Shown here one piece after another: positions 1-46,191 of a stretch of 64,000 bases of DNA. A program made the translations under genes and the position numbers. The notes beneath the pieces are model-generated. The model did not search any database, was not told where the DNA came from, and saw only the letters and a list, made by a program, of their open reading frames with translations. The first letter of the stretch is position 1, and every line of letters begins with the position of its first letter. The DNA is from Mucilaginibacter kameinonensis (lineage in GTDB: Bacteria; Bacteroidota; Bacteroidia; Sphingobacteriales; Sphingobacteriaceae): positions 496,001-560,000 of the forward strand of contig NZ_RCWZ01000004.1 of assembly GCF_003675385.1 (NCBI RefSeq), given 5' to 3'.

Positions 1-2625
1 ATAACCGACCCAGAATCCGTTGGTCTGTACCTGTGTTTCGATGGTGCGGTGGTCTTCCGCCTTAAATTTATCGAGATTGATCTGAGCCGGGCCGCTTTTC
101 CTGATTTTATCTATTTCGTCAAGCGTCGAGGAGATCAATTTTTCCACATTTTGAGGTGCGCAGCCGAAAGAGATATTCAGGTTAAAACGGGGAGCTGGGT
201 ATTTTACGCTTGCAACCTTAACGCCCGGCGAATACACGCCGCTTTCTTCTTCCCTTAACCTTTCATTCAGCCTGATAGCGATAACTTCCTTCAAGGCATC
301 TAATTTGAGGTTATTCTCCATATCGTAATTAAAATCGCCGGAAAAAACCAGGTTAACGGTTGCGCGCTCCTCCGTTCCTTTATAAACGGTAGCGGTTATT
401 TTTCCGGGAGGCGTGGTGATGTGAAGGTCCCTGGCCTGTTCTATCCTTCCATTCGAGGGCAGCGCTCCTAAATACCGCGCCAGCATGGGCCTGACAGAAC
501 CTGTATCAATGCTTCCTGTGATAACAAAAGTAAATCCGGAAGCATCCGCAAATCTTTCCCGGTATATTGCAAACGCCCGGTCTAAACTGATCTGATCGAG
601 CTTTTTCTGACTCGGTCCGGTCCTGCGGGGATTATTGCTGCCGAGGATAGCGTTCACCGTATCCGCATAAACCTTTGACGGATCCTCTCCCCTGTTAACC
701 AAGGCTGCTTTAGACCGCGCTATAATCCCCTGAAATTGCAGGGAGTCCTTTCGCGGAGCCGTGAAATAAGCCAAAATTAAACGAAGTGCGGATTCAAAAT
801 CAGCAACAGAACTCCCGCCGCTTACACCCTGGGTTCTTTCGTTGATAAAAGGCCGTACATTGATTTGCTTACCTGTTAAATACCGGTTCAGTTCCAAAGT
901 ATTGAAATTGCCGGCACCAAAAGATGGAATCAAGTTTGAGGCCGCGGCAGACTGGTATTCAGCGTCGCTGTACAAAGAAGTCCCCCCATCGGAGAACCCG
1001 CTGAAAAGGATCTGATCGTTCTTAAAGCTTGTTGGTTTGAGAATTACTTTGACGCCATTACTCAAAGTTAATCTGGTAATATGGAGTTTAAGGTCTTTTT
1101 CTTCCTTCACTATTTTTCCGGCGGCCGGCAGCGCACTTAACAATTGATCAGCACTTACAGTTTCCTGATATGCCGGCATGATTTCGCTTTCAGCCTCCCG
1201 GACCCATTTCTTAAAAACAGCCTGGGCTGGTACCAAAGCTTTATCTTTTGCCGGGGCGGTGATCAGAACGTCTGTATCGCTACCTTTTGCCTCCATTCCG
1301 GCCATCGCATATAAATCAGCCAGCTTGATTCCCGGCAATTCTTTTTGGAGCAATTCATATTCGGCGGCAATACCCGGAGCTGCGGTACCACTTAAAAAAT
1401 ACTGAAGGTATTCCTTCACCAGGCTCTCCGAGGGTGTTTTATCTTTTTCTTTTAACGCGGAGGCCATCCTGCTCATGAAATTGTTTTTTGCCCGGTCCAG
1501 CTCGGCTTGTGTGAATCCTGAACGCATCACCCGGGCCTGCTCTTTCCACGCTGCTTTAAACCCGGTTTCCAACTCACCCGGCTTCGCTGTAACGGAAACA
1601 GTGTAGCAGTCAAGCCCTCCCAAAAAGGGCTCAATCCCCGCGCTTCCGCGTAAAAAAGGTGGATTCGCCTGACGTTCCAACCCGGAGAAACGGTCCCTGA
1701 CCATTGTGTTGAAAAGCTCCCTCACGAGGCTTTCCCTGTACTGGCTGGCAGTATGCAGCTGAAGTCCGATCTGCTTATGAATCACTTCGACCGTAGTGGA
1801 CGTCTGCTCCGGGTCCGTCGCGACAATGAACTGGTTCTTTCCCGTGAGTTTGACCGCATACTTCGTCCGGCTTTGTTCCTTCACGGGGTTTTTCAAATCG
1901 CTGAACCTCACCTTAACCGCATTTTCCATGGCGTCAACATTGATGTCGCCGACAATAATGATGGCCTGCAGATCAGGGCGATACCATTCATTGTAAAAAT
2001 CCCTCAGGGCTTCCGGCTTAAATGTGTTCAGGATCCCGTCGGTCCCGATAGGCAGACGCTGGGCATAACGGGAACCATTTGTCAATAAAGGAAAATAATA
2101 AGCCCTCATTCTTTCATCGGCACCTTTTCCCAACCTCTTCTCTTCCAAAACCACCCCGCGTTCCTTATCGATCTCGGCCGGGTCCAGTGTTGCGCCCTGT
2201 GCCCAGTCCCGCATAATTTGTAATCCGCGCCCGACTACTACCGGGTCATCGGCAGGCAGCGGCAACTGGTAAACCGTCTCGTCAAAACTGGTATAGGCGT
2301 TTAGGTCGGCCCCGAACCGTACACCTGATTTCTGCAGGTAATTAACCAGCTCATTTTTGGGATAATGAACGGTGCCATTGAAACTCATGTGTTCCGTAAA
2401 ATGTGCAAACCCCCTTTGCTCCTCCGTTTCGAGAATAGATCCAACCTTGTTCGCCAGGTAAAATATGACCCGTTTTCCGGGGTTCTCATTGTGCCTGATA
2501 TAATAGGTAAACCCATTGGGCAACCTGCCGGTACGCACCGCGGGGTCTAAGGGCAGGTCTTGCGCATGGGCGATACCGCATGCGCCTGCCAGGTAAAGCC
2601 AGGCGAAAATATTGCTGATTTTCAT
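1..2625 (-). CDS. M16 family zinc peptidase (PqqL-like), C-terminus beyond the window
   Basis: The reading frame starts at the ATG complementary to 2623-2625 and stays open to base 1, giving 875 residues without a stop. About 930 residues is usual for PqqL-type M16 proteins, so the last few dozen are missing. The first 21 residues look like a Sec signal peptide ending in HA/AHAQ. The inverted zinc motif HFTEH lies at residues 75-79 inside GFAHFTEHMSFNG, where the histidines bind zinc and the glutamate is the catalytic base; this is the hallmark of the family. M16 enzymes degrade short peptides inside a closed chamber, here probably in the periplasm or on the outer membrane. It is the last visible gene of the SusCD/ABC/MutS run, 18 bp after the thioredoxin gene. 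Function in peptide processing is inferred; the family assignment is firm. Confidence 0.88.
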   Translation of the reverse strand, partial: MKISNIFAWLYLAGACGIAHAQDLPLDPAVRTGRLPNGFTYYIRHNENPGKRVIFYLANKVGSILETEEQRGFAHFTEHMSFNGTVHYPKNELVNYLQKSGVRFGADLNAYTSFDETVYQLPLPADDPVVVGRGLQIMRDWAQGATLDPAEIDKERGVVLEEKRLGKGADERMRAYYFPLLTNGSRYAQRLPIGTDGILNTFKPEALRDFYNEWYRPDLQAIIIVGDINVDAMENAVKVRFSDLKNPVKEQSRTKYAVKLTGKNQFIVATDPEQTSTTVEVIHKQIGLQLHTASQYRESLVRELFNTMVRDRFSGLERQANPPFLRGSAGIEPFLGGLDCYTVSVTAKPGELETGFKAAWKEQARVMRSGFTQAELDRAKNNFMSRMASALKEKDKTPSESLVKEYLQYFLSGTAAPGIAAEYELLQKELPGIKLADLYAMAGMEAKGSDTDVLITAPAKDKALVPAQAVFKKWVREAESEIMPAYQETVSADQLLSALPAAGKIVKEEKDLKLHITRLTLSNGVKVILKPTSFKNDQILFSGFSDGGTSLYSDAEYQSAAASNLIPSFGAGNFNTLELNRYLTGKQINVRPFINERTQGVSGGSSVADFESALRLILAYFTAPRKDSLQFQGIIARSKAALVNRGEDPSKVYADTVNAILGSNNPRRTGPSQKKLDQISLDRAFAIYRERFADASGFTFVITGSIDTGSVRPMLARYLGALPSNGRIEQARDLHITTPPGKITATVYKGTEERATVNLVFSGDFNYDMENNLKLDALKEVIAIRLNERLREEESGVYSPGVKVASVKYPAPRFNLNISFGCAPQNVEKLISSTLDEIDKIRKSGPAQINLDKFKAEDHRTIETQVQTNGFWVGY

Positions 2626-2643
2626 AAAATTCGTATCAGGAGG

Positions 2644-3777
2644 CTAGCGTTTAAATAATGAGGCCAGTTTTTTATTCAACTCATCCCCGCGCAGGTTTTT
2701 TCCAATGATTTTACCATTCGGGTCAATCAGGAAATTCTGGGGGATCGCTGTGACGTTGTACAATTTGGCAGCTTCGCTGTTCCAGAATTGTAAATCGGAC
2801 ACCTGGGTCCAGGTCAGGCCATCTGCTTTGATCGCCGCGAGCCAGTCGCTCTTTTTTCCGGGCCTGTCCAGTGAAACCCCTAATACGGTAAAATTTTGGT
2901 CTTTATATGCCTGGTAAGCTTTAACAACATTCGGGTTTTCATTTCTGCAGGGCATACACCAGGAAGCCCAGAAATCAAGTAATACATACTTACCTCTGAA
3001 ACCCGCGAGGGAAACCGGCTGATCATTAACATCATTTAATGTAAAAACGGGCGCCGTTGCACCGATCTCTGTAGCATTTACCGCGGCAAGCGATTTCCCG
3101 AGTGATTTCCCGGCCATTGTATTCCTCACGCTCAGGGTAAGTCCGTTGTATAAGGGAAGCACCGTCGCCACATCGATATCCTGTCCGGCTAATTCCGTCA
3201 ATGCCAGAAGGCTGATATAAGAATCAGGGTTTTGTTTAATAAATTCCCGCTGCAGTGTTTTCCGGTCTCCCATCAGCTTATCTGCCCGCGACTGCAGGTC
3301 CCTGATAAAATCCTGGTCCTGTTTTTTTTCCGCAGGGGCTGCAATATACTCGCTGTTAAGCCGGGCAATAGCTTTTTCAGGCACCGCAATAAACTGCTTG
3401 TACTTCAGGTTGTCATCATTGAGCCCGGAGCCGCTGATCAACGCTTTTTTTACCGAATCACCCGCAGTCATGTTGATCGTCCCCTTTTCCAGATAGAAGA
3501 GGGTAAAATCCGCGGTCCGGTTCAGCTTATTTAATCCGGCTCCCTGGTGATCCAGAATGAGCTGGGCGACCAGCGGATCGGTCAGCGTACCTTTGAATTC
3601 AAAATTGCCTTTGACTACAAGTGCCGAGTCCCTGATCACTTTTCCGTCTTGCTTGTAAACGAGGTATGCCTTTTCCGGCGCACTACCTTCCCCGATCTTC
3701 GCTTTCAATGTAAAATTGCTTTGGGCCAGCAAAGGGGCCGGCAAAAAAGCGAATGCCGCTAACCATACTTTTTTCAT
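2644..3777 (-). CDS. TlpA-like thiol:disulfide oxidoreductase with N-terminal DUF4369-type domain
   Basis: A 377-residue exported protein. Residues 1-19 form a signal peptide ending in LLAQ. Residues about 20-235 resemble the DUF4369 domain that often precedes thioredoxin domains in Bacteroidota. Residues about 238-377 are an AhpC/TSA-TlpA thioredoxin fold, with WCMPC placing the redox cysteines at 274 and 277 and a cis-proline loop in TAIPQNF. Such proteins are anchored in or free in the periplasm and reduce disulfides of client proteins. The gene lies 11 bp after the second MutS-like gene and 18 bp before the M16 peptidase, so it is probably co-transcribed. A plausible job is to reduce a disulfide-containing substrate or to keep the neighbouring secreted proteins reduced; this is inference. 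Confidence 0.9.
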   Translation of the reverse strand: MKKVWLAAFAFLPAPLLAQSNFTLKAKIGEGSAPEKAYLVYKQDGKVIRDSALVVKGNFEFKGTLTDPLVAQLILDHQGAGLNKLNRTADFTLFYLEKGTINMTAGDSVKKALISGSGLNDDNLKYKQFIAVPEKAIARLNSEYIAAPAEKKQDQDFIRDLQSRADKLMGDRKTLQREFIKQNPDSYISLLALTELAGQDIDVATVLPLYNGLTLSVRNTMAGKSLGKSLAAVNATEIGATAPVFTLNDVNDQPVSLAGFRGKYVLLDFWASWCMPCRNENPNVVKAYQAYKDQNFTVLGVSLDRPGKKSDWLAAIKADGLTWTQVSDLQFWNSEAAKLYNVTAIPQNFLIDPNGKIIGKNLRGDELNKKLASLFKR

Positions 3778-3788
3778 GATGTATCTTC

Positions 3789-5162
3789 TTATTTAATCTT
3801 ATTGGTGTTTGTTAATTTTTCAGGGGAGGCATCGGATCGCTGAATTTCATTGATCAGATCGAGAATCCCCTCATTTTCAATGATGGTCATCCCATGCCTG
3901 TCTGCTGTGATCCCTTCTTTAAGCCGGTAGCTATATGTAGGCTTTGAAGCCTCCATAACCGTTGGGAGGTAGGCGAATTGGAAATTGGCACACCGGCTAC
4001 GGAGCTCCTCTCCCACTTCGGTGATATGTGTTGAAATAATAAAAAAGCTATTCCTGTTTTCAGCAAAGGCTTCGCTGATGGCCAGTGTAGCATCGTAGGC
4101 ATCTTTGACATTGGTGCCTTTGAAAAGCTCATCGAAAATCACCAACAATGTCCTTCCGGCAGCTACATCTTCAGCTACTTTTTTGACCCTGAGTATTTCC
4201 GCATAAAAATGGCTGTAGCCAAGCCCGATATTATCGGGGACATTGATCGATGAGTACAGCCCGTCTTTAACTGAAAATACCATTTCATCCGCGGCAACCG
4301 GAAATCCCATGTGCGCGAGGTAAAAGGCGATCCCCGCTGCTTTCATCAAGGTGGATTTACCCGCCATATTGGCCCCCGTCAGAAAGACCACGTTAGAACC
4401 GGTATCAGATGCCAGCTTATTACCTACTGCATTCCTGATCCCCGGGTGACGAAGTCCGCTGATATGCAGCCTGTTGCTTTCCGAGGGCAGCGCTTCTGGA
4501 TAACAAAACCCATTTCTTGCTGCGACGGCCGCTACGGCAATGTATACATCCAGCCGGTAGATCAAACTTATCAATTCGGCCATTTGCGCGCTCAGAACGC
4601 CGCGGAGCAAACGGTCATACGTGATCAGTTTCGCCAGGGATATCTCCGGGGATATATTATCTTCTTCAATGGCCAACAACAGAGAGTTCCCCAGTATAGC
4701 CTTAAATGCCGACAGCGTCTGCGAAAACGGGCCTCCGTCATCGTCCATTCCCCAAATAAAACCCTGAAATTTCCGCAAAGCGGAGACTGTAACTGTCAAC
4801 GCTTTTTTCAGTGAATCAAAGCTATCGTCTTTTGCTGCTGCCTGGAGTACCTTTTTAACCAGCAAGTTCTTTGAAACCGCCAGGATATTGCGGCTCCCGC
4901 CCGAATGAAGGTATTCTTCCATCATGGAAAACTCCTCCTCCTGCACCGGAAAAGAATAGCTCCGGGCAGTAAAGTATTCAAAAATCCCGCTGCGTTCATT
5001 AATCTGCGCTTCATTGGTCAAGGGGTTCCGGAACATTTCGTCCAGTAATTTTGCCCCCCCCGGAGTGATGGTTTCATCAAATATCCTGGCAACTGAATTA
5101 TTTTTATGCCTGCCTGGTATGTTCAGGTCATCAAGCGTCTGTTTATCTGCAAAAGTATTCAT
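3789..5162 (-). CDS. MutS-like ATPase, second of a tandem pair
   Basis: A 457-residue protein with the core/lever part of MutS (residues about 5-225) and the ABC-type ATPase domain V. Walker A is GANMAGKST at 263-271, Walker B is VIFDELFKGT with the catalytic D344/E345, and STHI near 377 is the switch histidine. It lacks the N-terminal mismatch-recognition domain with its Phe-x-Glu motif, and at about 460 residues it is roughly half the size of MutS. Its start codon overlaps the stop of the paralogous upstream gene in an ATGA, indicating translational coupling. The surroundings are transport and peptidase genes rather than repair genes, so a role in mismatch repair is unlikely. What it acts on is unknown. 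Confidence 0.85.
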   Translation of the reverse strand: MNTFADKQTLDDLNIPGRHKNNSVARIFDETITPGGAKLLDEMFRNPLTNEAQINERSGIFEYFTARSYSFPVQEEEFSMMEEYLHSGGSRNILAVSKNLLVKKVLQAAAKDDSFDSLKKALTVTVSALRKFQGFIWGMDDDGGPFSQTLSAFKAILGNSLLLAIEEDNISPEISLAKLITYDRLLRGVLSAQMAELISLIYRLDVYIAVAAVAARNGFCYPEALPSESNRLHISGLRHPGIRNAVGNKLASDTGSNVVFLTGANMAGKSTLMKAAGIAFYLAHMGFPVAADEMVFSVKDGLYSSINVPDNIGLGYSHFYAEILRVKKVAEDVAAGRTLLVIFDELFKGTNVKDAYDATLAISEAFAENRNSFFIISTHITEVGEELRSRCANFQFAYLPTVMEASKPTYSYRLKEGITADRHGMTIIENEGILDLINEIQRSDASPEKLTNTNKIK

Positions 5163-6508
5163 GGCTGTTCAGCTTTTGTTTTAGCCTTTCCGAGAATTTC
5201 CAGGATGCGCTCATTGTTGATGATCACCATCCCGTGTCTGTCTGAGGTGATCCCGCTTTCTAATTTGTAGGTATATACGGGCCTGCTGCCATCCATTACC
5301 GTAGGCAGGTAAACGAAATTGATATTGCTGCAGCGTTCTTTAAGTATTTCTCCCGCCTCGATGATGTGCGTCGAGAGGATAAACGCACAATTTGGCCGTC
5401 TGGCAAAAGCGGCTGTCAGCGCAACCGTTCCTTCGCATGCGTCACGGACATTGGTGCCCCTGAAGAGCTCGTCGAAAATAACGAACAGGTTTCTACCGGC
5501 AGCGATTTCCTTCGCGATTTTTTTCACACGTAATACTTCAGCATAAAAATGGCTGTTTCCCGACGAAAGGTCATCTGGCAGGTTGATGGTCGTATAAATA
5601 CCGTCGCGCAAAGCAAACTCCATCTTTAGCGCAGGCACCGGAAAGCCAAGGTGGGCCAGGTAAAGCGCTATGCCGATCGACTTCATGAAGGTAGATTTAC
5701 CTGCCATATTAGCGCCGGTAAGAAATACGACAGACCCCTCTGGCCCGACACTTAATTTATTGGATACAGGATCGGGCACTTGCGGGTGGAACACACCTTC
5801 CAGCAGCAGGTTATTTTGATCTGCTGATAATAGAACGGGGAGTACGAAACGCTGTTCGGTCGCGACCCTGGCCACCGACCGGAAAACATCCAGCCGGTAC
5901 ACCCATTGCAATAAGTTATCAATTTCCTTACGAAATTCAAACCGGAGAAATTGATCTGCGTCCGAGATTTCCTCAAAAGAAAGTGATGACCTGAGCAATC
6001 CGGCCCGCAACGGGCCGGACACCGATCTGTCCAACGGACTTAATATTTTCCCCAATTCGCTTTTCAGCACCTCCGGCAGGGCGACTGTGGCTTCATCGGA
6101 AATCATTGCCAGGAGATCTTTTATTAAACCCAGGGTTGCCGAGACACCCGCTTTAATATTCCGGTGCCTTGTATCCCCGGCAATAAACGTATATAATTTC
6201 CTTTTCAGGCCGAAGGGTTCATCAGGCAACCGGTATCTTTCATCCGTTTCAGCCATATATTGCTCTATCGCGTCAAGTTCACTCCCATGAAAGGGGAAGG
6301 AAAAAGGAGCGGCCTGAAAAAATCCCAGCATTGCTATCCGGTAGCGGATAGCGTCCGGATCGTTAAGCGGGTTTAAAAAAACAGCTTCCAGCATCTCCGC
6401 CCCTCCACGGGTAGCTGTATGATTGAACATGGTGAATATAGAATTCCCACCCCGTTTACCGATGATATTCAGGTCGTCAAGCGTTTGTTTGTCTGTTTGG
6501 AACGCCAT
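5159..6508 (-). CDS. MutS-like ATPase, first of a tandem pair
   Basis: A 449-residue paralogue of the next gene: both open with the same DKQTLDDLNI and share most ATPase motifs. Walker A is GANMAGKST at 265-273 and Walker B is VIFDELFRGT. As in its partner, the MutS lever/core and ATPase domains are present but the mismatch-binding and connector domains are missing. MutS ATPases work as dimers with composite active sites, so the two products may form a heterodimer; that is inference from the pairing and the 4-bp overlap. The gene starts 3 bp after the stop of the fused ABC permease gene, pointing to a common transcript with the transporter. Confidence 0.85.
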   Translation of the reverse strand: MAFQTDKQTLDDLNIIGKRGGNSIFTMFNHTATRGGAEMLEAVFLNPLNDPDAIRYRIAMLGFFQAAPFSFPFHGSELDAIEQYMAETDERYRLPDEPFGLKRKLYTFIAGDTRHRNIKAGVSATLGLIKDLLAMISDEATVALPEVLKSELGKILSPLDRSVSGPLRAGLLRSSLSFEEISDADQFLRFEFRKEIDNLLQWVYRLDVFRSVARVATEQRFVLPVLLSADQNNLLLEGVFHPQVPDPVSNKLSVGPEGSVVFLTGANMAGKSTFMKSIGIALYLAHLGFPVPALKMEFALRDGIYTTINLPDDLSSGNSHFYAEVLRVKKIAKEIAAGRNLFVIFDELFRGTNVRDACEGTVALTAAFARRPNCAFILSTHIIEAGEILKERCSNINFVYLPTVMDGSRPVYTYKLESGITSDRHGMVIINNERILEILGKAKTKAEQP

Positions 6509-6511
6509 TTC

Positions 6512-8812
6512 TTATTTCCTTTTTCTGCGGATTAATAATACCGTGCCAGAGATCAGCATCAGGCCGGGTATGACAAACAGGTAAATAACCTTCATAAATT
6601 TCACCTGAATTGCGGATACCGTTATCAGGTTATCTACCGGTGGCAGGCGCCTGGTATACAGCGGAAATTCGTTGTGCGCAAACCAGCTGAAAACAGCATT
6701 CGCAAAATCATAGTTTGCTGTTCTGATATTCGCCTGGTTCAACTCGCCGTTACTCATAAAATCGGCATCGCTGGTAACGATAATACGCTGTTCCTTTTTG
6801 CCTATCTTCCTGGTGAGCGCGAGCGCCGTAGGATAAGCACCGGACTGATCGCCGGACTTCGGGTCAAAAGCGAGTGCTGCAGAATCAAGCACCAGTTTCC
6901 CGGTGCGGTTCCAGCTCTTCTTTTCAGGAGAAACGAGCAGGGTATCCACTGCAAAACCATTATTCTTATCAAATGCCAAACCGGAAACCGCAGGCATGGA
7001 TACCGGGATATCGCCTTCATAATCATCTTTCAGCATCGGAGACAGGAGCGCACCGCCTTTTGTGATCTGCGCGGTCACCATATCCGGCGGAAAGTCTTTG
7101 CTCGGCTGCACAATGGTTCCTTCCATCAATCGTACGCCCAGCTGTTTTAAAACCTCATTGTTTAATGCTCTCTTGCTGCTTTCGGCCGCGATCATCAGGT
7201 TTCCGCCTGCATTGATATAGTTACGCAGCTTCTTCATGCTCACGCTGTCATAACCGGCTCTCCGGTCGGCAATAACAAGCACGGAGAGGTCCTGAGGGAT
7301 TTCCTGGTCTTTCAGCGCGATGGAATCGATGCTGAAACCACGGTTGATCAGCGAAGACCTGTTTGTTCTTACATTGGTTAATACCTTGTAATCCTTGCTT
7401 CCAATTTTATCGATACTCCGTTCATAGCCATCGCTTGCGAACACGATCCTCGGCGGATTGGTCATCAGGCGTTTTAAAGCGGTCGCCACTTCAGTCTCTC
7501 CCGGCCAAAAATCGTTATCGTCAAAAACACGCAGGAAGGTTGACTGACCTTTATAGCTGAGCTGCATGACCAGCCGGTTGTGCTCATCCCGCAGGTCAGC
7601 CAATTGGTGAACCTCCATCGGGGATTTGAAACGTCCGGGGTCAATCTCCAGGAACCTGGCCTTTTTGTCAAAAATTTCCTTCAGGGATTTTCCCGTGTTC
7701 ATACCCGTATTAAAGTAGGGGTCAGGAATGGCGTCGTAGTAGTAAACCCATTTTAACCGGATATTTGATTTGAACCGGAGGTAGGGTTCCCAACGGTCCA
7801 GTTCCCTGATCCGTTCCTCAGCCGCGGCCCTGCCGTATGTACCGTCAAGCAGGTTGACGTATTCGGTAACCTCAATAGGATCGGCACCGGTTTGCTTCAG
7901 CACCTCCTGTGTCTTCTGCTGAAGCGTATTACGTTTAGTGGCGGTGGCATCGTAGTAGCCGATAAATTGCTGCCTGGAGCTGAGGTAGGTCACAGAGATC
8001 CCTGAAATTATAATGAAAGCATAACCAGAGATCCTGGCTAACAAACTTCCGGCATCCCTTGCCATGCGGAGTTTAAAAATCGTGAAAGACAGAAAGATGT
8101 AAACGATCATCACGAAATAAATAACATCCCTGGTGGTCAGAAACCCTCCGAGCATCTTCACGGTCCTTCCCGGCATCGATAAACTGAAAGTCAAATCCCT
8201 CAAAAAATCTTTGTCCTGCCAGAGACTGCCGATATACGACAATAAAGCAAAAACCATAAACGTGGTGACGGCGGCCACGACCTGATAAGTGGTAAGACTG
8301 GACATAAAGAGCCCTATGGCAGCATAAGCACAAAGCAGTAAATAAATTCCCAGTAAGGCGGAGAGCAGCTGCATATAACCAAAATGATCAATAGATATCG
8401 CGCCACCGATAACAACCAGGGACAACAATCCTATCAGCACCAGATTATAATAGACCATAGCCAGGAATTTACCCAAGACGATCTGCGAGATCGTTAGTGG
8501 GGATGAATACAAGAGCTTGATGGTACCACTGCTTGTTTCCCTGCTGATCAGGCTCATGGTCACCAGCGGAATATACAGGTAAAGTGTAGAAAGCAGGTTA
8601 CTGAAGATGCCCTGCCCATTTTTGGTAAACACGTTGCTGGTCAGGAAAGAGTAGGACATTTTATACCATTCCTGCGAGCGTTGCATACCTTCTATGGCCC
8701 CGGTAAAACCATAGGCCACCTGAAAAAACAGCGCGATCATAAGCAACCATGCTATTGGGGAATAAAAAAGCAGGCTCAGTTCCAGACGTGCTATTTGAAG
8801 AGTTTTTTTCAT
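6512..8812 (-). CDS. ABC transporter permease fused to a GldG-like extracytoplasmic domain
   Basis: A 766-residue membrane protein. The first roughly 265 residues hold about six transmembrane segments of the ABC-2/GldF type, including the typical ETSSGTIKLLYSSPL loop. Residues about 290-730 form a large extracytoplasmic region like GldG, with a ThuA/glutamine-amidotransferase-like stretch (VLVIADRRAG, GGNLMIAAE). A last transmembrane helix precedes the basic C-terminus RRKRK. In gliding bacteria GldF and GldG are separate proteins working with the ATPase GldA; here the two are one chain. The ATPase gene ends 5 bp upstream. No other gliding genes lie nearby, so a dedicated exporter or a machine driving envelope work for this operon is more likely than gliding. 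The substrate is unknown. Confidence 0.83.
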   Translation of the reverse strand: MKKTLQIARLELSLLFYSPIAWLLMIALFFQVAYGFTGAIEGMQRSQEWYKMSYSFLTSNVFTKNGQGIFSNLLSTLYLYIPLVTMSLISRETSSGTIKLLYSSPLTISQIVLGKFLAMVYYNLVLIGLLSLVVIGGAISIDHFGYMQLLSALLGIYLLLCAYAAIGLFMSSLTTYQVVAAVTTFMVFALLSYIGSLWQDKDFLRDLTFSLSMPGRTVKMLGGFLTTRDVIYFVMIVYIFLSFTIFKLRMARDAGSLLARISGYAFIIISGISVTYLSSRQQFIGYYDATATKRNTLQQKTQEVLKQTGADPIEVTEYVNLLDGTYGRAAAEERIRELDRWEPYLRFKSNIRLKWVYYYDAIPDPYFNTGMNTGKSLKEIFDKKARFLEIDPGRFKSPMEVHQLADLRDEHNRLVMQLSYKGQSTFLRVFDDNDFWPGETEVATALKRLMTNPPRIVFASDGYERSIDKIGSKDYKVLTNVRTNRSSLINRGFSIDSIALKDQEIPQDLSVLVIADRRAGYDSVSMKKLRNYINAGGNLMIAAESSKRALNNEVLKQLGVRLMEGTIVQPSKDFPPDMVTAQITKGGALLSPMLKDDYEGDIPVSMPAVSGLAFDKNNGFAVDTLLVSPEKKSWNRTGKLVLDSAALAFDPKSGDQSGAYPTALALTRKIGKKEQRIIVTSDADFMSNGELNQANIRTANYDFANAVFSWFAHNEFPLYTRRLPPVDNLITVSAIQVKFMKVIYLFVIPGLMLISGTVLLIRRKRK

Positions 8813-8817
8813 AGAAA

Positions 8818-9774
8818 CTATTTGTTTTTATTTTGTTTACCGGATACTTTGGAGAGCTGCGCGAAGGTTTCATTAAGTGAATTTTTTTCTGCCATGATTT
8901 CGCTCAGCCGCCAGCCTGACCCCGCACTGGCCAGGACAATTTTTTCCGCTACGGTCTTATCTCCGTTAAAATAGATGCGGGCCTGCTTTTCGGTCAGGAA
9001 GTCGACGCGCGCGATACCGGGTATTTCCATCAGGCTGTCGGCTGCGGGGGCCTCTTCCATCGTGACCAGAAGACAATTGGGAGCGATATAGTTGTCGAAT
9101 GCCTCCATGGTATCAGAAAAGACAATACGCCCGTTTTCAATCATCTTGATATCCTTGCAGAGATATTGCACTTCAGAAAGCATATGGGTAGAAAGGATAA
9201 CGGCGTGCTCTTCAGCGATATCCCTGATCAGTGCTCTCACTTCGATAATCTGATTGGGGTCTAGACCGTTGGTAGGCTCATCAAGTACGACCAGGCTGGG
9301 GCGGTGAATGATGGCCTGCGCAATCCCAACCCTTTGTTTGTAACCGCCGGACAGGTTCCTGATCAATCGTTTACTGATATGGGAGAGGCCACAGCGGCTC
9401 TTCGCTTCATCAAGTGCGCCCGGAAGGTTCACCTTTTCAACAGACCTGATCATTGCGCAGTGCGTTAAATATTCATCTACCGTAAGATCGGTATATAACG
9501 GTGGCGTTTGTGGCAGAAAACCTATCAATTGTTTGGCTTTTTCCGGTTGTTTCCTGAGATCTATCCCGTTGATATATACATCGCCCTCGGTCTGGGTCAA
9601 TACGCCGCAGAGAATGTTCATGGTTGTGGATTTTCCGGCTCCGTTAGAGCCCAGTAATCCGGTAATACCATTTTTAACGATTTCTATTTCGATGTCGCGG
9701 ATGGCCCAATTGGAATTGTAACGGTGCGACAAACCCGTGATCCTGAGAATAGGTTCCTTATTTATAGTGGTCAT
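8818..9774 (-). CDS. ABC transporter ATP-binding protein (GldA-like)
   Basis: A 318-residue ABC ATPase of the ABC-2 exporter class. Walker A GSNGAGKST is at 42-50, the signature LSGGY at 141-145, Walker B LVVLDEP at 161-167, and STHML is the switch histidine. The C-terminal extension of about 80 residues is usual in GldA/CcmA-type subunits. It is encoded directly upstream of its probable permease, the fused GldF-GldG-like protein, with a 5-bp gap, and 18 bp after the metallohydrolase-like lipoprotein gene. It should power the permease from the cytoplasmic side. The family is certain; the transported substrate cannot be read from sequence. Confidence 0.92.
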   Translation of the reverse strand: MTTINKEPILRITGLSHRYNSNWAIRDIEIEIVKNGITGLLGSNGAGKSTTMNILCGVLTQTEGDVYINGIDLRKQPEKAKQLIGFLPQTPPLYTDLTVDEYLTHCAMIRSVEKVNLPGALDEAKSRCGLSHISKRLIRNLSGGYKQRVGIAQAIIHRPSLVVLDEPTNGLDPNQIIEVRALIRDIAEEHAVILSTHMLSEVQYLCKDIKMIENGRIVFSDTMEAFDNYIAPNCLLVTMEEAPAADSLMEIPGIARVDFLTEKQARIYFNGDKTVAEKIVLASAGSGWRLSEIMAEKNSLNETFAQLSKVSGKQNKNK

Positions 9775-9792
9775 AAGTCTGTGTTGTACCGT

Positions 9793-10674
9793 TTATTGCG
9801 GTACTGTAAAGTTGATGGTCTTAAAGATTTCGAGGAGGTAAGTGTATTTTTGCATGACAAGCGGATAGCTTTGATATGTTGTCACAAAATCGGAGGACGA
9901 CAGTGTTAACACCGTGTCCAGGTAAGCCGATAAATCTTCTATGGCTCCGCGCACATCGTAATAAGTAGGCTGTTCGGTGCCGTCGTTCAGCAATCCATAG
10001 GTCGGTTTAGGTTTAAAAGGGATGAGCTGTCCGCTTGAAACCCTGCCAAAGGCTGTCTTGCCATAGTAAGCGCTGCTAACTGCATAAAATTTTGCGGTCA
10101 GGTTAGGGTCAGCATTGATCTTTGCCGTAAGGATCGTTTTCAGGATATCATTGCGGTATTTTTTTAGTTGTAAGGCATCCATGCTTTTGATTGCAGGTAC
10201 GTAAGAGATAGCCACCGTATTAAAACCTAAATAGCTGCTTAGCGGCACCCTGACCAATGCCCCGCTGCCGGAAGGATCCGGCGTGAAAGTATAAACCGAA
10301 TCGGTCAGCAGGATAGAGTATGGCCTTAGAGCCTTACTTAAGTTCGGTACGATCTGTGTTTTTACAAAATCAAGGCCGGCCAGAACATCAGCTTCATTGT
10401 GCATATACTTTGCCGTAACCATAGAGTCTATTGTAGTGAGATGGTAACTGAGGTTCAGCTTTTGCAAAGGTGTTTTACTAAGCGTATCACTATACAGTAC
10501 CGGAAAGCCGGTTTCCTGATAGAACAGGTAAATCTGGTGATCTGCTGCGCTTTGTGGATTATCAAGCCTTGCAAATGGATCTGCGGTTACCGGAGATGCC
10601 TGAGGTATGCTTTCTTTTTTACAAGAACACCATACCATCAATGCGGCTATGAGATAAAAGAGGTATTTTTTCAT
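9793..10674 (-). CDS. SusCD-associated lipoprotein resembling zinc metallohydrolases but lacking HExxH
   Basis: A 293-residue lipoprotein: hydrophobic residues 4-15 are followed by CSC (Cys16/Cys18) and KK, a lipid-attachment pattern. The layout (a helical first part, a GFNTVAISYV strand, then a helix and KFYAVSSAYYG) resembles the substrate-import-associated zinc metallohydrolase lipoproteins that sit next to SusC/SusD pairs. Where those carry HExxH, this protein has KTILTAKI, with no histidine at all, so it cannot bind zinc in that way. It may be a substrate-binding relic of the enzyme. It follows SusD by 25 bp and precedes the ABC ATPase by 18 bp. The relationship is judged from overall pattern, not from a profile search. 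Confidence 0.6.
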   Translation of the reverse strand: MKKYLFYLIAALMVWCSCKKESIPQASPVTADPFARLDNPQSAADHQIYLFYQETGFPVLYSDTLSKTPLQKLNLSYHLTTIDSMVTAKYMHNEADVLAGLDFVKTQIVPNLSKALRPYSILLTDSVYTFTPDPSGSGALVRVPLSSYLGFNTVAISYVPAIKSMDALQLKKYRNDILKTILTAKINADPNLTAKFYAVSSAYYGKTAFGRVSSGQLIPFKPKPTYGLLNDGTEQPTYYDVRGAIEDLSAYLDTVLTLSSSDFVTTYQSYPLVMQKYTYLLEIFKTINFTVPQ

Positions 10675-10699
10675 TGTGTCGAATGCTGATTAGGATCGG

Positions 10700-12211
10700 T
10701 TAAAAAGTTCTGTTCTGACGTGCAGGGTTTTGCTTTAATGCCCCCTGGTTAAAAGTAATTGCATCCAGCGGTATGGGAACCAGGTAGTCCGGGTCACCCG
10801 GCTGGAGGACGAGACTGGCTTTCAAAAATGGACTTGCACCGTAACTGACGTCTGAATAATTATGAACGATTGTCGTTGTGAAGGGATATGCCGTGTTGAC
10901 AGCATAACGTTTCAGATCGAACCAGCGATGGCCTTCAAAGCAAAGTTCCCTCCGGCGTTCGTCCCTGACGAAGCTGACCAACTGGGCTCCTGAATAATTT
11001 ACGGGCACGAAAGTAGATGGATCAAAACGTGATTGACGCAGGGTATTAACTGCGGCATTCGCATCTGCCGTGCGCCCCAGCATGGAAGCAGCTTCCGCCT
11101 TGTTCAAATAGGCTTCAGCATTCCGGAGAAAATAGTTGTCCGAGAATATCTCTGTCGGAAACACGTTGTTAGCGCGTGAGCGGTACATTTTTGTATACCG
11201 AACCTTCCCGGCTGCATCGGTTTCAAAATACGCGGTACGGCGAAGGTCACTGGTTTCATAAAGGTTCATGAGCGCGGGGCTGGCCTGAAATGATTTGGTG
11301 AGCCCATCCCCCATCAGGTAAACCATGGCATTCCCCCCTTCATTAAAAATGGCCTCGGGGTTATCTCTTGAAAAAAAACTGGTCAATGGTTTATAATTGG
11401 TAAGGCTGGACAGGGTCGGCCTGCGTGCAATTACTTTATCCGCGGCGGTTATGGCTTCTTCCCATGACTGCATATAGAGGTAAATTCTGCTTTGCAACAG
11501 GTTCACAGCGTCGACATTGGCATAATAAATGGATGAAGGGGTTAGTCCTGTAAGGCATTTTTCAGAAGCGTCCAGATCAACGAGCATCTGCTGGTAGACA
11601 CTGTCGACCGTAGAACGCGTGAAAAATTTATCCTCTACAAACTCCGTTGTTTTCAGGGGCACCCCCATATCCGTTTTAGCGGTTTGTTTATTATAAGCCT
11701 GGGCATAAGTGTTTACCAGGTAGAAATAATAATAAGCGCGCAGGAACAACGCCTCGCCCCTGATGCGCTTTAATTGTTCGGGGTTATCATGCAACTGCCC
11801 GGCCTGATAAATCATGATATTGGCAGCATTGATTGATTTGTAAACTTTCGGCCAGGTATCATCAACGTAGGGCAGAAATGTTTTGTCGACGCAGGGGTTG
11901 GATTGCCAGGTGTAAAACCCGAACACGTCGTCCCTGTTGTCGATATAATAGGGCGCGCTTACAAATTCGGTAATGTCGTCATCCATCGCGTTCAGCCATG
12001 GGAAATAAACCGCCGTACCGGATTCTTTAAATGAAGTGCTTGGTGGCGTGGTAAAATGTTTCATATAAACCTCGCCTTGCATCACTTCGTCCATTTTTTG
12101 CCAGGTGTCGGCATAGGCCAGGTCCTGCGATTGTTCCTCTAAAAATTTCTTGCACCCGGTTAGTGTAAATGCCATACACCAAATCCCGATATATATAAAT
12201 GCTTTTCTCAT
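10700..12211 (-). CDS. SusD/RagB-type outer-membrane lipoprotein
   Basis: About 503 residues, read from the ATG at 12211 (MRKAFIYIG); an in-frame TTG two codons upstream is less likely. The lipobox LTGCKKF puts the lipidated cysteine near residue 20. The tetratricopeptide-rich fold of the family shows in LFLRAYYYFYLVNTYAQAYN, and the C-terminal part has RDERRRELCFEGHRWFDLKRY, the classic SusD signature. SusD proteins lie on the cell surface as a lid over the SusC channel and bind the substrate. It follows SusC by 11 bp. Because its operon lacks glycoside hydrolases and contains peptidase and thioredoxin genes, its ligand may be a peptide or protein rather than a sugar; that is inference. Confidence 0.95.
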   Translation of the reverse strand: MRKAFIYIGIWCMAFTLTGCKKFLEEQSQDLAYADTWQKMDEVMQGEVYMKHFTTPPSTSFKESGTAVYFPWLNAMDDDITEFVSAPYYIDNRDDVFGFYTWQSNPCVDKTFLPYVDDTWPKVYKSINAANIMIYQAGQLHDNPEQLKRIRGEALFLRAYYYFYLVNTYAQAYNKQTAKTDMGVPLKTTEFVEDKFFTRSTVDSVYQQMLVDLDASEKCLTGLTPSSIYYANVDAVNLLQSRIYLYMQSWEEAITAADKVIARRPTLSSLTNYKPLTSFFSRDNPEAIFNEGGNAMVYLMGDGLTKSFQASPALMNLYETSDLRRTAYFETDAAGKVRYTKMYRSRANNVFPTEIFSDNYFLRNAEAYLNKAEAASMLGRTADANAAVNTLRQSRFDPSTFVPVNYSGAQLVSFVRDERRRELCFEGHRWFDLKRYAVNTAYPFTTTIVHNYSDVSYGASPFLKASLVLQPGDPDYLVPIPLDAITFNQGALKQNPARQNRTF

Positions 12212-12222
12212 GATCAATTCTT

Positions 12223-15200: not shown

Positions 15201-15900
15201 ATGTAATGGCGCTTGTCAGCTTCCTCCGCTCTATTTTTTGATAACCGTTAGTAACCACAACCTCATCGAGACTGGCTACTTTAATTTTCAACCTGACCGT
15301 TTTAGGTTCGCGTGTCGCCTGAATTTCTATTGGCTCATACCCGGTAAAAGAAATAACAAGTGTGGCTTTTTCCTCAACATCCAATAAGGTAAAATTGCCT
15401 TCTCCATTTGTCAGGACGCCCCGGCTTTTCCCTTTAACGATCACCGTGGCACCTGCAAGCGGGCTGCCGTCTTCGTTTACAACTTTCCCGGTCACCGTAA
15501 TGACGGCAGGATCAGGAATCTTGGGTGCAGGAACACCTGGTGCCTTTTCCTTGATGATGACGGTCTTGTCATCGATAGTAAAAGTCATTCCTGTGCCGCT
15601 GATCAATGCTTTGATAACATCGCTCAACGGCGTGTCCCTAAAATCAATATCAATCAGCTGGCTTGTTTTAAACCGGGAGGTAAATACGATAACATCGTAG
15701 CCGGTTTGTTCACTGATTGCCTTGAACACTTTTTCCACTGAAACATTTTTTCCTTTCAGGGTGAGCTTCTGTCCAAATGTCGCGGCGCTGACCTGCATAA
15801 GCGCTGCAACCAGAATGAGAACGGTTAGCTTCATGATTAATAGTAATTTATGGGTATAGGCTGGAGGAGCCCACCAATTTCTGGTAGAATTTTTATACAT
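12223..15900 (-). CDS. SusC/RagA TonB-dependent transporter with STN signalling domain
   Basis: A 1225-residue outer-membrane transporter. After an N-terminal leader (a second signal-like start is the MKLTVLIL methionine at residue 23) comes a secretin/TonB short N-terminal domain (about 45-110), a carboxypeptidase-like regulatory domain (about 135-210), a plug with GVRAANGVIVITTKKGK, and a long beta-barrel ending in the aromatic SITLDVSF. The STN domain is the part that talks to a FecR anti-sigma factor, and one is encoded just upstream (16174-17340). SusC imports its substrate with TonB energy under the SusD lid. The 273-bp gap to fecR is longer than any other in this run and holds a plus-strand terminator opposite the SusC leader. 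Confidence 0.95.
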   Translation of the reverse strand: MYKNSTRNWWAPPAYTHKLLLIMKLTVLILVAALMQVSAATFGQKLTLKGKNVSVEKVFKAISEQTGYDVIVFTSRFKTSQLIDIDFRDTPLSDVIKALISGTGMTFTIDDKTVIIKEKAPGVPAPKIPDPAVITVTGKVVNEDGSPLAGATVIVKGKSRGVLTNGEGNFTLLDVEEKATLVISFTGYEPIEIQATREPKTVRLKIKVASLDEVVVTNGYQKIERRKLTSAITSVKAADITNPAFFTIDQALEGRIPGLFVLNNSGDIGVSPKIRVRGTSTILGNRDPIWVVDGVVVNDPVGIDPSTINDLDFVNRLGNAISGLKPYDIDQIDVLKDASATALYGVRAANGVIVITTKKGKIGEPVINFDQSTTLTKRPRYTDNNIRLMNSRQRVDYSKDIINSGLEYSGNINYVGYEGALNNLYTGKITYDQFQAQVSQMETMNTDWFGTILKDAISTQNNISVSGGSNKMTYYASVGAATQRGTVRGDKTDQFTALVKLSASLTPRLTWDMTLRGNNQKSDYVAGSVNALSYAYNTSRAVPAFNEDGSLSYYQKFSAGATSASYYKFNILNEMQHSRDLINTSGINLLTDLNVKVSSHLNGTVLLSYGNNNSNDQTVYEENTFYAASLRRSEYGTPAPTTSLMPFGGELKSNQVRNDSYLVRGQLNYDRPIGATSRDNLNVTLGGEISSNTYKGYNIDRRGYLPDRGETYAAIDPVKYPSYAQWANLSDMDIVRDELTNLASAYFSSSYTINDKYIVNFNTRTDFSNKFGSRAKEKFLPTWSVSGRWDIDKDFFKNSESVNMLALKASYGFQGNMLDNQTPNLIIKQGAVDPITQAYYSNIAYYPNPNLKWEKNKEVNIGLDFGFFNNKVQGTVNYFNKTTSDAFLSKEVADINGVPSYVVNSGTVKNRGIEVTLSFTPINNLGPNGKKGGFTWRIDPQLGQVINKLLARSVNSQNVGESNANVYNNYLTGSQIIDGKASNTFYSYHFTGLDHLTGLPTFANNDPSMADKYKGMTLDEVVKEVMVPSGNRVPTVQGGILNVFSYRQFSFSFNMTYSLGSKVRLQKLYSNTVNGIVSSTVSAPLPENNVNLDFVNRWRKPGDEAHTIIPALVGGAAYANTLNLWSTGQSYQYADNIWQMYDNSDARVASGNYLKLRTLNLRYNLSDALTRRLRIKQTSVMFSATNVHTWASKKLEGQDPEQAGFGDNTQLSPRSTYSITLDVSF

Positions 15901-16028
15901 TTACGGGTCTGGTTTAGGCTATATGAAAAGTTGTGAAGCACCTGCATACAGCCAATTAATAAAATATTGGTTACTCAATGTTTTAAACCTGATCAAAGGG
16001 CTTCGACCACGAATCGAGGTCCTTTTTT
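15896..16028 (+). ncRNA. Candidate antisense RNA to the SusC leader, locus 1
   Basis: On the plus strand a -7-like box TACATTTA (15896-15903, seven of eight matches to TAnnTTTG) overlaps the SusC start codon region, and about 100 bp further a Rho-independent terminator ends at 16028. A transcript from about 15910 to 16028 would be near 118 nt and complementary to the fecR-susC intergenic leader. The same arrangement is present in the second SusC locus. Bacteroides is known to carry cis-antisense RNAs of the DonS type at this place in ECF-regulated loci. No -33 element is clear, so this rests on position and on the terminator. Confidence 0.35.
15995..16028 (+). terminator. Intrinsic terminator in the fecR-susC gap, antisense to susC
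   Basis: AAAGGGCTTCGA (15995-16006) pairs over 12 bp, with two G-U pairs, with TCGAGGTCCTTT (16014-16025) across the loop CCACGAA. Six Ts run from 16023 to 16028. The T-run is on the plus strand only, so it ends transcripts opposite to the SusC operon. Confidence 0.6.
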
Positions 16029-16173
16029 GGGTTTACGGGCCTGTCTAAAAGAAGGAGTCTTTTCTCATCGTTTGTTGCTTTGGTGTTTAAAATCTGTTAA
16101 TTAAAAAGGGTTATTAAAATATCCGCGCTTCTCGTTTTTGTCCACCTTTACCCTGGTACCAATCATTTTTCGG

Positions 16174-17340
16174 CTATTGTTTCCTGCTTATAGTGATCGT
16201 ATTCCCCTCCACTTTGAACCTGACTTTTTCTGTTTTTTCCATGAGCTTCAATATTTTATCGATCCGCTCGTACCTGCTTAGTTTGGCGTATAAGGTTTCT
16301 CTCTTCAGGCTTTCATCCTCATAAATAATTTTGGTGTCATACCACCGCGAGAGCCGTTGCATGATGCTGCCCAGATCCTCATTATTAAATAGAAAGTAAC
16401 CTTCTTTCCAGGCTATAGCGTCGCGGCTATCGACATCATTGACAACAATACCCTTAGCAGATAACATGGATTGCTGGTCGGGACTCAACAGGGTCCGGCT
16501 TAATTTTCCGGGCGCAGTGGCGGTATTAATCCTCGGGGAAACCGCAACGCGCCCCTCAAGCAATGTCGTTTTTGTGGTTGCGTCTTCACCATACGCGTCG
16601 ATATTGAAATGCGTTCCGAGTACCTCAACCTCCTGCATTGAGGTTCGGACCTGAAAAGGATGGTTTTTGTCTTTGGAAACTTCAAAATACCCCTCGCCTT
16701 CCAGCTCAACGCTTCTTTTGAGATTCCCGGCAAAACTGGAAGGGAACCTCAGTGAACTTGCGGCATTCAACCAGACTTTGGTGCCATCGGAAAGCTCTAC
16801 CTGATACATGCCCCCTTTGGGTGTCCGCACAGTTGTAAATAATGTTCCTGAATTTGTCTTTCCGTCTGCTACTGCGGAGTCGCCCAGGGCAGCCCCGTCG
16901 TTATAGGCTATGTCACCGGCTTTGATGACTACTCCGGTTTTCTTGCTGCTCAGGTTTATTTTTTTGCCGTTGGCCAGCTCTAAAACAGCAACGTTGCGCC
17001 CCGGGCGGATGACGGCGCTATAACCGGGTCGCTGGGGTTTATCCGTGCGGTGTATACTGAAATACAACCAACCCGCACCTGCGACCAATATAACAGCCGC
17101 CGCCGAGGCTATTTTTTGCCACAGCACGAACCGCTTCGCGACGGATGGTAAAATTCCGATATGGGCGCTGAGGTTATCCCAGACTTCCAGGTTATCCTCC
17201 TGTAGCTCCCGCTCTGTAGGAAAAACTTTACTTTGCTTAAGAAATTCATGGAAATAATATTCAACCAGCTGCTTTTCGTCCTGCGTAGCGGTGCCGTCGA
17301 TGTATTTCTTTATTAAAACTTCTGCCTGAGATCTGTTCAT
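16174..17340 (-). CDS. FecR-type anti-sigma factor
   Basis: A 388-residue inner-membrane protein. The first 80 or so residues are cytoplasmic and should hold the ECF sigma factor; a single transmembrane helix follows (KIASAAAVILVAGAGWLYF, about 87-105). The periplasmic part has the FecR domain (about 165-260, with VWLNAASSLRFP and GEGYFEV) and a C-terminal DUF4974-like domain that resembles an STN partner fold (EDLGSIMQRLSRWYDTKIIYED). In this family the STN domain of the outer-membrane transporter contacts FecR when the substrate is bound and frees the sigma factor. Its sigma gene lies 141 bp upstream and SusC 273 bp downstream. Confidence 0.93.
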   Translation of the reverse strand: MNRSQAEVLIKKYIDGTATQDEKQLVEYYFHEFLKQSKVFPTERELQEDNLEVWDNLSAHIGILPSVAKRFVLWQKIASAAAVILVAGAGWLYFSIHRTDKPQRPGYSAVIRPGRNVAVLELANGKKINLSSKKTGVVIKAGDIAYNDGAALGDSAVADGKTNSGTLFTTVRTPKGGMYQVELSDGTKVWLNAASSLRFPSSFAGNLKRSVELEGEGYFEVSKDKNHPFQVRTSMQEVEVLGTHFNIDAYGEDATTKTTLLEGRVAVSPRINTATAPGKLSRTLLSPDQQSMLSAKGIVVNDVDSRDAIAWKEGYFLFNNEDLGSIMQRLSRWYDTKIIYEDESLKRETLYAKLSRYERIDKILKLMEKTEKVRFKVEGNTITISRKQ

Positions 17341-17481
17341 AGCCCCGAGTTAACATAATTTAAATACATGTCCTTTAACTCGCGGTATTTTCCCGGTTTA
17401 TTTTAAAATAATTGAAACTTGTTGTTAAATCATCATAATAAGAAAGAAAAAGCAAAAATTTCCGGGGCAATATTCGAAATT

Positions 17482-18057
17482 TCAGTAAAATAAAAGAAAA
17501 GAAAGCATTGAAAAGCCAAGTTTTGGCTTTAAACGGGATGAAGCTTCGCTGATAAGGTTCTGCACAGTTTTTTCCGAAATATTAAGTTCCTCCGCTATTT
17601 CCTTATAACTGAAAAACTCCAGTTTACTCATCACAAAAGCGCGGGCCATTTTTGGCGGTAAGGCAGAGATGAGCCTTTCCAGTGTCCTGGCCAGGTCTTT
17701 TTCTTCCAGATAGGTCTCCGTGTTGCTGACACCGTTTACCATCGTATTTAAAAATCTTTCCGCGTAACCCGATTTTATTTTTTCACTGGCTGTCTGCTTA
17801 AGAAATTTATAGCGCACGGCTGTATAAAGGTAGGCTGAAATCGAAGTCCTGAAATTAGTGGCTGACCGGTTATCCCATAAGGAGATGAAAAGATCCTGAA
17901 CAATATCTTTGCTGCTATCCCTATCGGCAGTAAGTTTAAAAGCATACACATATAATAAACCGGCGTAACGCTCATAAATCTCAGTAAAGGCATGATGATT
18001 ATTATCCTTCAGCAGGTCCGATAACTCCAGATCATTTAGTTTACTGTAATTTGCCAT
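17482..18057 (-). CDS. ECF RNA polymerase sigma factor (Bacteroidetes expansion type)
   Basis: A 191-residue sigma-70 family protein with region 2 (about 15-95; DSSKDIVQDLFISLWDNR is region 2.2-2.3) and region 4 (about 125-175; FFSYKEIAEELNISEKTV is the helix-turn-helix for the -35 element). It has no region 1.1 or 3, as expected for ECF factors. Together with the FecR gene downstream and SusC with its STN domain it forms a complete surface-signalling chain that should switch on the SusCD/ABC/MutS/M16 operon when the substrate is present. A 23-bp perfect dyad lies about 70 bp upstream of the start. Confidence 0.93.
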   Translation of the reverse strand: MANYSKLNDLELSDLLKDNNHHAFTEIYERYAGLLYVYAFKLTADRDSSKDIVQDLFISLWDNRSATNFRTSISAYLYTAVRYKFLKQTASEKIKSGYAERFLNTMVNGVSNTETYLEEKDLARTLERLISALPPKMARAFVMSKLEFFSYKEIAEELNISEKTVQNLISEASSRLKPKLGFSMLSFLLFY

Positions 18058-18435: not shown

Positions 18436-18470
18436 AAAAGAAAAGGGAACACTGATTGAAGTGTTCCCTT
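18436..18470 (-). terminator. Intrinsic terminator after the fucosidase locus
   Basis: AAGGGAACAC (18443-18452) and GTGTTCCCTT (18461-18470) form a perfect 10-bp stem with an 8-nt loop. Read on the minus strand the hairpin is followed by TTCTTTT. It lies 70 bp beyond the alpha-L-fucosidase stop and closes the second import locus. Confidence 0.75.
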
Positions 18471-19946: not shown

Positions 19947-19981
19947 TATGGATCTTATTTTGTGTACGAAAGGGCAAAGTA

Positions 19982-20006
19982 AAGGGCAGCAACAGCCGCT
20001 GCCCTT
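19982..20006 (-). promoter_or_regulatory. Intercistronic hairpin between SusD and fucosidase genes
   Basis: AAGGGCAGC (19982-19990) and GCTGCCCTT (19998-20006) form a 9-bp GC-rich stem with a 7-nt loop, starting right after the SusD stop. On the minus strand only a short mixed tail (TACTTTG) follows, so it may act as a weak terminator or RNA-stability element that lowers fucosidase expression relative to SusCD. Confidence 0.4.
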
Positions 20007-20012
20007 AAATGA

Positions 20013-21635: not shown

Positions 21636-21667
21636 GATCTTATTTTCAAAATTCATAAACCCAATGA

Positions 21668-25151: not shown

Positions 25152-25220
25152 CCCCTCGAATAGTGTGGCATATTATTTTCTCATAGGCTATTACTTATAG
25201 GTTTATATTTTATAGGTTGG

Positions 25221-26387: not shown

Positions 26388-26458
26388 TAAGGTGTTTTAA
26401 CCTAAGTCACTTAACTGCCACGCAGGTGCTAATAAAAAAACATTTTTTTAAAAAAAAA

Positions 26459-39423: not shown

Positions 39424-39425
39424 TC

Positions 39426-42271: not shown

Positions 42272-42310
42272 TCAAGGGCCAGTCATCATTAAAAAAGGAA
42301 GGAGTTCATC

Positions 42311-43673: not shown

Positions 43674-43680
43674 ACCGGTT

Positions 43681-44328: not shown

Positions 44329-44342
44329 AAAACTCCAATCTT

Positions 44343-46190: not shown

Positions 46191-46191
46191 C

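Follow-up and report, generated by a model that had tools for sequence, protein, structure and literature searches.

An 11-gene operon of the soil bacterium Mucilaginibacter kameinonensis joins a SusCD-type outer-membrane receptor, a GldA-GldFG ATP-binding cassette (ABC) machine and a tandem pair of MutS-like ATPases, here called MutA and MutB, and its core, SusCD-GldA-GldFG-MutA-MutB, is conserved. The operon occupies positions 1-18057 of the window, by which we mean the whole 64,000-nucleotide stretch analysed (contig NZ_RCWZ01000004.1, positions 496,001 to 560,000, from a 7.3 Mb genome), with all genes on the minus strand in the order sigma-FecR-SusC-SusD-LP-GldA-GldFG-MutA-MutB-TlpA-M16. 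It is widespread and, apparently, undescribed. We tentatively favour a reading in which it encodes a regulated, protease-linked, TonB-dependent SusCD-type import of peptides or proteins, with an ABC machine and a MutS-core ATPase that would work off DNA. That the operon is a unit is much more certain than its substrate or the step served by the MutS pair.

17482..18057, minus: extracytoplasmic function (ECF)-type sigma factor at the operon head; Sigma70_r2 and Sigma70_r4_2 above cut-off
16174..17340, minus: FecR anti-sigma factor/sensor; FecR 70 bits, FecR_C 81 bits
12223..15900, minus: SusC/RagA-type TonB-dependent transporter, 1225 aa, with N-terminal STN domain; STN, CarboxypepD_reg, Plug; TIGR04056
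10700..12217, minus: SusD/RagB-type surface lipoprotein; SusD_RagB, SusD-like_3; start TTG at 12217 or ATG at 12211
9793..10674, minus: LP, surface lipoprotein without a Pfam or NCBIfam family match
8818..9774, minus: GldA-like ABC ATPase; ABC_tran; top NCBIfam family GldA
6512..8812, minus: GldF-GldG fusion, an ABC membrane subunit plus a periplasmic GldG/IFT52-type domain; ABC2_membrane_2, ABC_transp_aux
5159..6508, minus: MutA, MutS-core ATPase (domains III and V), 449 aa; MutS_V 105 bits; Walker motifs invariant in the alignment
3789..5162, minus: MutB, MutS-core ATPase, 457 aa, overlapping MutA by 4 bp; MutS_V 94 bits, MutS_III 37 bits
2644..3777, minus: TlpA-type periplasmic protein, DUF4369 plus AhpC/TSA thioredoxin-like domain; CxxC motif (WCMPC)
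1..2625, minus: M16 peptidase, PqqL/FusC-like, with the active-site motif HFTEH; M16 and its C domains
18443..18470, minus: terminator-like hairpin between a fucosidase locus and the sigma gene; weak, such sites being no more numerous than in shuffled sequence

A conserved core with variable slots

The gene order and spacing given in the preliminary description hold: from SusC to M16 the genes run in one direction behind the sigma/FecR pair, and the gaps between them range from -4 to 25 bp. They are 5 bp (SusC-SusD), 25 bp (SusD-LP), 18 bp (LP-GldA), 5 bp (GldA-GldFG), 3 bp (GldFG-MutA), -4 bp (MutA-MutB, an overlap), 11 bp (MutB-TlpA) and 18 bp (TlpA-M16); upstream, 141 bp separate sigma from FecR and 273 bp separate FecR from SusC, and the SusC-SusD gap widens to 11 bp with the alternative SusD start, an ATG two codons further on. 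The peptidase, thiol reductase, GldA/GldFG ABC machine and two MutS-family ATPases named in that description are all matched by domains. SusC passes TIGR04056 (584 bits against a cut-off of 368) and SusD passes SusD_RagB (84.5 against 23.1), so that the pair, a SusC/RagA barrel with an adjoining SusD lipoprotein, is of the SusCD (RagAB) type. The STN domain of SusC scores 32.6 bits against a cut-off of 28.4, and together with FecR and the sigma gene it completes the gene set for STN-FecR-ECF sigma surface signalling. An LP homologue with 47% identity accompanies matching SusCD in Chitinophaga terrae (L130). The last 164 bp of the M16 gene, at its C-terminal end, lie beyond window position 1, and the complete protein has 929 aa (L007:11836-14625). 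The hairpin at 18443..18470 is a possible operon boundary, and Sigma-70 promoter matches in the region are no commoner than in shuffled sequence.

The gene order was searched across Bacteroidota, and 95 MutA-MutB loci, all retrieved via MutB and at least four of them fetched twice, were mapped. GldFG lies directly upstream of MutA in 89 of the 95, which bears out the earlier proposal of a functional unit extending beyond close relatives; GldA is at most three genes away in 86 and SusD at most six genes away in 81. Because the order recurs in most of the 95 loci, it is far beyond chance. The six loci without an adjacent GldFG comprise a contig edge (L090), an insertion (L145), a different context (L139) and three loci in which a SusC-GldA operon has MutA-MutB ahead of its sigma gene (L080, L091, L112). 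Single MutS relatives of about 450 aa from the same search occur in unrelated gene contexts.

MutA-MutB hosts belong to Sphingobacteriaceae and Chitinophagaceae. The nearest relatives of the window operon are in its own genus, where about 12 of the 61 genomes searched, the window's own counted, carry a tandem MutA-MutB, and 15 same-genus loci show SusC-SusD-GldA-GldFG-MutA-MutB as far as the contig extends. The best 80 of 579 candidate relatives from named genomes, used as an 80-locus set, include Mucilaginibacter, Pedobacter, Sphingobacterium, Chitinophaga, Niastella, Pseudoflavitalea, Longitalea and others. In a family other than that of the window, 14 of 149 genomes have the pair; the fused GldFG family is present in 11 of 395 genomes drawn evenly across the phylum, nearly always with SusCD. 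The 6.7 Mb genome of Pseudoflavitalea rhizosphaerae yields 49 matches, or about 24 MutA-MutB pairs; among its loci that were read (L087, L088, L101 and others), median identity is 25% for SusD and 64% for MutB.

The correlation (r) of pairwise identities across the 95-locus set separates the operon into modules. Within modules r is 0.97 for SusC-SusD and 0.91 for both GldA-GldFG and MutA-MutB; between modules it is 0.71-0.78 for GldA/GldFG against MutA/MutB and 0.43-0.57 for SusCD against the rest. Median identity across loci is 25-26% for SusC and SusD and 65% for GldA, a pattern of identities and correlations as would be expected if one common engine were fitted with exchangeable receptors. 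The window operon is itself mosaic. SusCD has its nearest match in Chitinophaga terrae (67% and 60%) and GldA in Chitinophaga costaii (75%), and for MutB and M16 the best matches are own-genus relatives (61% and 64%).

The nine genes from SusC to M16, first taken as one set, therefore hold together in part: the core stands, while LP, thioredoxin and peptidase are all variable, and MutA-MutB is itself an add-on. Across loci the LP slot is filled by DUF4843, PKD-like, weakly Peptidase_Mx1-like or family-less proteins, and the tail slot by M16, S41, tricorn-type S41 or DUF4953/DUF5117 metzincin peptidases; in some loci trypsin-PDZ proteins stand one gene beyond it. Directly after MutB in the 80-locus set, M16 follows in 10 loci, a thioredoxin-type gene in nine and S41 or metzincin genes in several more; the peptidase is common, yet not core. 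The series sigma-FecR-SusC-SusD-GldA-GldFG occurs without MutA-MutB in three same-genus genomes, two of them with M16, and followed by M16 in six loci from five genomes that belong to another family of the same class. Such loci show that SusCD-GldA-GldFG-peptidase does not need the MutS pair, which Sphingobacteriaceae and Chitinophagaceae have as an addition. One rearranged locus (L183:7482-20000) reads sigma-GldA-GldFG-FecR-SusC-SusD-M16, with the ABC genes between sigma and FecR.

No paper describing SusCD together with MutS-like proteins was found in the open-licence full-text literature, a weak negative that leaves the earlier suggestion of a candidate undescribed system standing.

The MutS-core pair

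Both MutS proteins exceed the MutS_V cut-off of 30.2 bits, and across 184 proteins Walker A is kept in all and Walker B, with GTN, in 183. A structure model of MutB built from 45 sequences (predicted local distance difference test score, pLDDT, 88.5; predicted template modelling score, pTM, 0.87) matches MutS and MutS2 cores with Z of 29-36, and its residues 1-440 align with residues 262-788 of E. coli MutS. As MutB thus begins at the equivalent of MutS residue 262, domains I (mismatch-binding) and II (connector) are missing. The MutS clamp domain (domain IV) bears a sheet. In the MutB model residues 1-222 form helices almost throughout, residues 28-222 contain no strand, and only about 38 residues separate the lever helices, so the clamp, too, is absent. 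MutA and MutB therefore comprise MutS domains III and V only. They share the fold of these domains and intact Walker motifs with MutS/MSH and MutS2, and differ in lacking the clamp sheet as well as domains I and II and in being encoded in a transport operon.

Several features suggest that the two proteins act together. Their genes overlap; among 149 genomes of one family, those with complete match counts contain even numbers of MutA/MutB proteins (2, 4 or 8); and MutA-MutB gene fusions have at least four independent origins. Together these point to an obligate heterodimer, probably resembling MSH2-MSH6 in this respect. A model of the fusion protein (5 sequences, pLDDT 73.6, pTM 0.48) was of middling confidence and was not used for the interface, and the addition of single MutA and MutB sequences to the fusion alignment was dropped; the identity of about 40-46% between MutB and the fusions suggests that MutB aligned with the MutA half.

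In the NCBIfam ranking MutS is nearest, far below its cut-off, and KamC (NF052383) is second for MutB (E 1.7e-32). KamC, of lysine 5,6-aminomutase, is likewise a MutS-family ATPase, and its NCBIfam name is that of an enzyme reactivase rather than a DNA repair protein. Unlike KamC, the window pair has no aminomutase at its operon, and its scores of 113 and 107 bits lie below the NF052383 cut-off of 300. On the modelled architecture a DNA repair role for MutA-MutB is unlikely. A defence role was also considered, and neither protein matched PADLOC. In two same-genus genomes (L055:6035-11724 and L056:5131-10797), a single 450-aa MutS-core protein adjoins a mutase-like gene which, by eye only, we take to encode a B12-dependent acyl-CoA mutase of the isobutyryl-CoA mutase type; this pairing recalls the link, through the KamC reactivase, of MutS-fold ATPases with B12 enzymes.

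Proposed peptide import and competing readings

Among named solved structures, the M16 peptidase is closest to PqqL (6ofs, E 1e-69) and FusC (6b03, E 3e-37). Both matches cover nearly the whole protein, and the scores of ordinary M16 enzymes are far lower. The closest solved structures overall are 9ldy for M16 and 8ypt/8ypu for SusCD, and RagA is among the solved relatives of the window SusC. Fus and Ydd/PqqL operons place a TonB-dependent receptor and an ABC transporter alongside M16, and the Fus system imports ferredoxin and then cleaves it (PMC6793856, PMC5095587, PMC7593965). The window operon resembles Pectobacterium FusABCD and E. coli YddA-YddB-PqqL, which serve, or are proposed to serve, in importing and processing proteins (PMC6793856, PMC5095587, PMC7593965): it, too, combines a TonB-dependent outer-membrane receptor, a periplasmic M16 peptidase from the same subgroup and an ABC transporter. 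It differs from them in its GldA-GldFG machine, sigma/FecR control, TlpA-type protein and MutS-core pair. By analogy, we propose that it may work like the Fus system.

Domain search found no glycosidase among the operon proteins, in line with the preliminary description, and the operon does not class as a polysaccharide utilisation locus. The accompanying statement that known SusCD loci carry sugar hydrolases was too narrow, since RagAB of Porphyromonas gingivalis, a SusCD-type pair, takes up peptides (PMC11817032). The window pair shares with RagAB and other SusCD systems the TonB-dependent SusC/RagA barrel and the SusD/RagB lid. We know of no described SusCD/RagAB system with a dedicated GldA-GldFG machine or MutS-like ATPases. 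Of the substrate first suggested, the peptide-like part remains the best guess, given the PqqL/FusC-related M16 and the other peptidases in or near its slot elsewhere, and nothing specific speaks for metal binding. The ABC genes share ATPase and membrane/periplasmic subunit families with gliding GldA-GldF-GldG, but score below the NCBIfam cut-offs (GldA 245 against 402 bits, GldF 69 against 288) and, unlike these, encode GldF and GldG as one polypeptide inside SusCD operons.

In the favoured import reading, the SusD/LP lid and SusC barrel would bind one particular peptide or small protein and pass it to the periplasm. Meanwhile, signalling from the SusC STN domain through FecR to the ECF sigma factor would induce the operon. 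The TlpA-type protein would then reduce disulfides and the PqqL/FusC-like M16 cut the cargo. GldA-GldFG, including its periplasmic GldG domain, would carry the products across the inner membrane or clear them from it. Finally, MutA-MutB would form an obligate cytosolic heterodimer serving as a second, non-DNA ATPase on the cytosolic side of the ABC machine, regulating it or remodelling its cargo. It is conceivable, and we hold it with some reserve, that a MutS heterodimer stripped of DNA binding is a dedicated part of a trans-envelope importer (SusCD plus GldA-GldFG), acting on the transporter or its peptide cargo, with two dozen receptor-specific copies per genome.

Several observations weigh against this reading. 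The window receptor is SusC/RagA with a SusD lid and not of FusA type, and no TonB-like FusB gene is found among the operon proteins, for which reasons the operon is not classed as a Fus member. A peptidase or thioredoxin lies directly downstream in only about 30 of the 80 MutA-MutB loci and the gene following MutB is on the opposite strand in 23, which places the peptidase outside the core. Either a peptidase encoded elsewhere could stand in, or the substrate may not be the same. MutS-less operons of the same kind imply that the role of MutA-MutB may be peripheral. Retrieval through MutB makes the co-occurrence figures conditional on MutB.

The same parts could instead serve sensing and resistance: SusCD, ECF sigma and FecR would detect antimicrobial peptides of competitors, the peptidase and thiol reductase would inactivate them, and GldA-GldFG would expel them from the inner membrane in the manner of LanFEG immunity pumps. 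The GldA-like ATPase also scores on the lantibiotic-protection family TIGR03740 (174 bits, below the cut-off of 310), a peptidase with a disulfide reductase suits cysteine-rich peptides, and many divergent receptor copies (about 24 pairs in one genome) with patchy presence fit an arms race. However, a TonB-dependent importer is a poor opening step for resistance, SusCD with STN/FecR/sigma is the standard switch for nutrient uptake, the GldA family fits the same ATPase better (245 bits), and many loci lack a peptidase; we regard this explanation as unlikely. A small precursor-peptide gene, as for a ribosomally synthesised and post-translationally modified peptide, was also considered, and the locus maps contain no conserved small open reading frame at cut-offs of 60-90 aa, shorter frames not having been looked for.

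A glycan or glycopeptide route, in which the operon aids adjoining polysaccharide loci by importing N-glycopeptides from which GH29 and GH92 enzymes strip sugars, appears distinctly unlikely. It draws on the GH29 fucosidase locus (18540-27070) on one flank and the GH29- and GH92-like genes (L007) on the other, and on GldG-type domains being related to IFT52/OST48 folds; the GldFG profile matches IFT52 structures. Against this, other genomes have different flanks and the same core with no glycosidase in its operon, and the fucosidase locus has its own SusCD, FecR and sigma.

That MutA-MutB acts on DNA, for example in recombination that diversifies the adjoining SusCD genes, is very improbable. 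SusCD is indeed far more variable than the engine and segregates from it, but the mismatch-reading and clamp domains are missing, there are no strong inverted repeats and no recombinase gene near SusC, and MutA-MutB co-vary more with GldA-GldFG than with SusCD. Phase variation was rejected, as no strong inverted repeats are present. Finally, patchy distribution and several variable tail genes might suggest that the genes form no functional unit and merely co-travel by descent or as a genomic island, which we consider hardly credible: two families with many copies preserve the order although identity has fallen to about 25% for the receptors and 50% for MutS, and neighbouring genes have fused.

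Genomic surroundings and implications

On one side of the operon, the GH29 fucosidase locus, which includes SusD, SusC, FecR and sigma genes of its own, occupies window positions 18540-27070 on the minus strand; on the other, genes reading like GH29 and GH92 lie at L007:3291-7099. Farther along the window, CTnDOT-type conjugative transfer genes (TraG, TraJ, TraM) are found at 39204-47651 (plus strand), and just beyond them a Gabija pair at 52916-56702 (plus strand), in which GajA (PADLOC E 6e-218) overlaps GajB (E 5e-218); the pair is perhaps carried by the same element as the transfer genes. Adjoining it at 56754-60923 is a gene for a 1389-aa NACHT-domain protein without a PADLOC match.

If the import reading is true, protein import-and-digest systems described in Proteobacteria would extend to SusCD operons of soil Bacteroidota, with a couple of dozen receptor versions in one genome, and ABC machines of the GldA/GldFG class would gain a role outside gliding. 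MutA-MutB would also offer a tractable case of MutS-fold ATPases working off DNA, in which a repair fold may be reused for transport. Cultivable Pedobacter, Mucilaginibacter and Chitinophaga strains make these points open to gene deletion.

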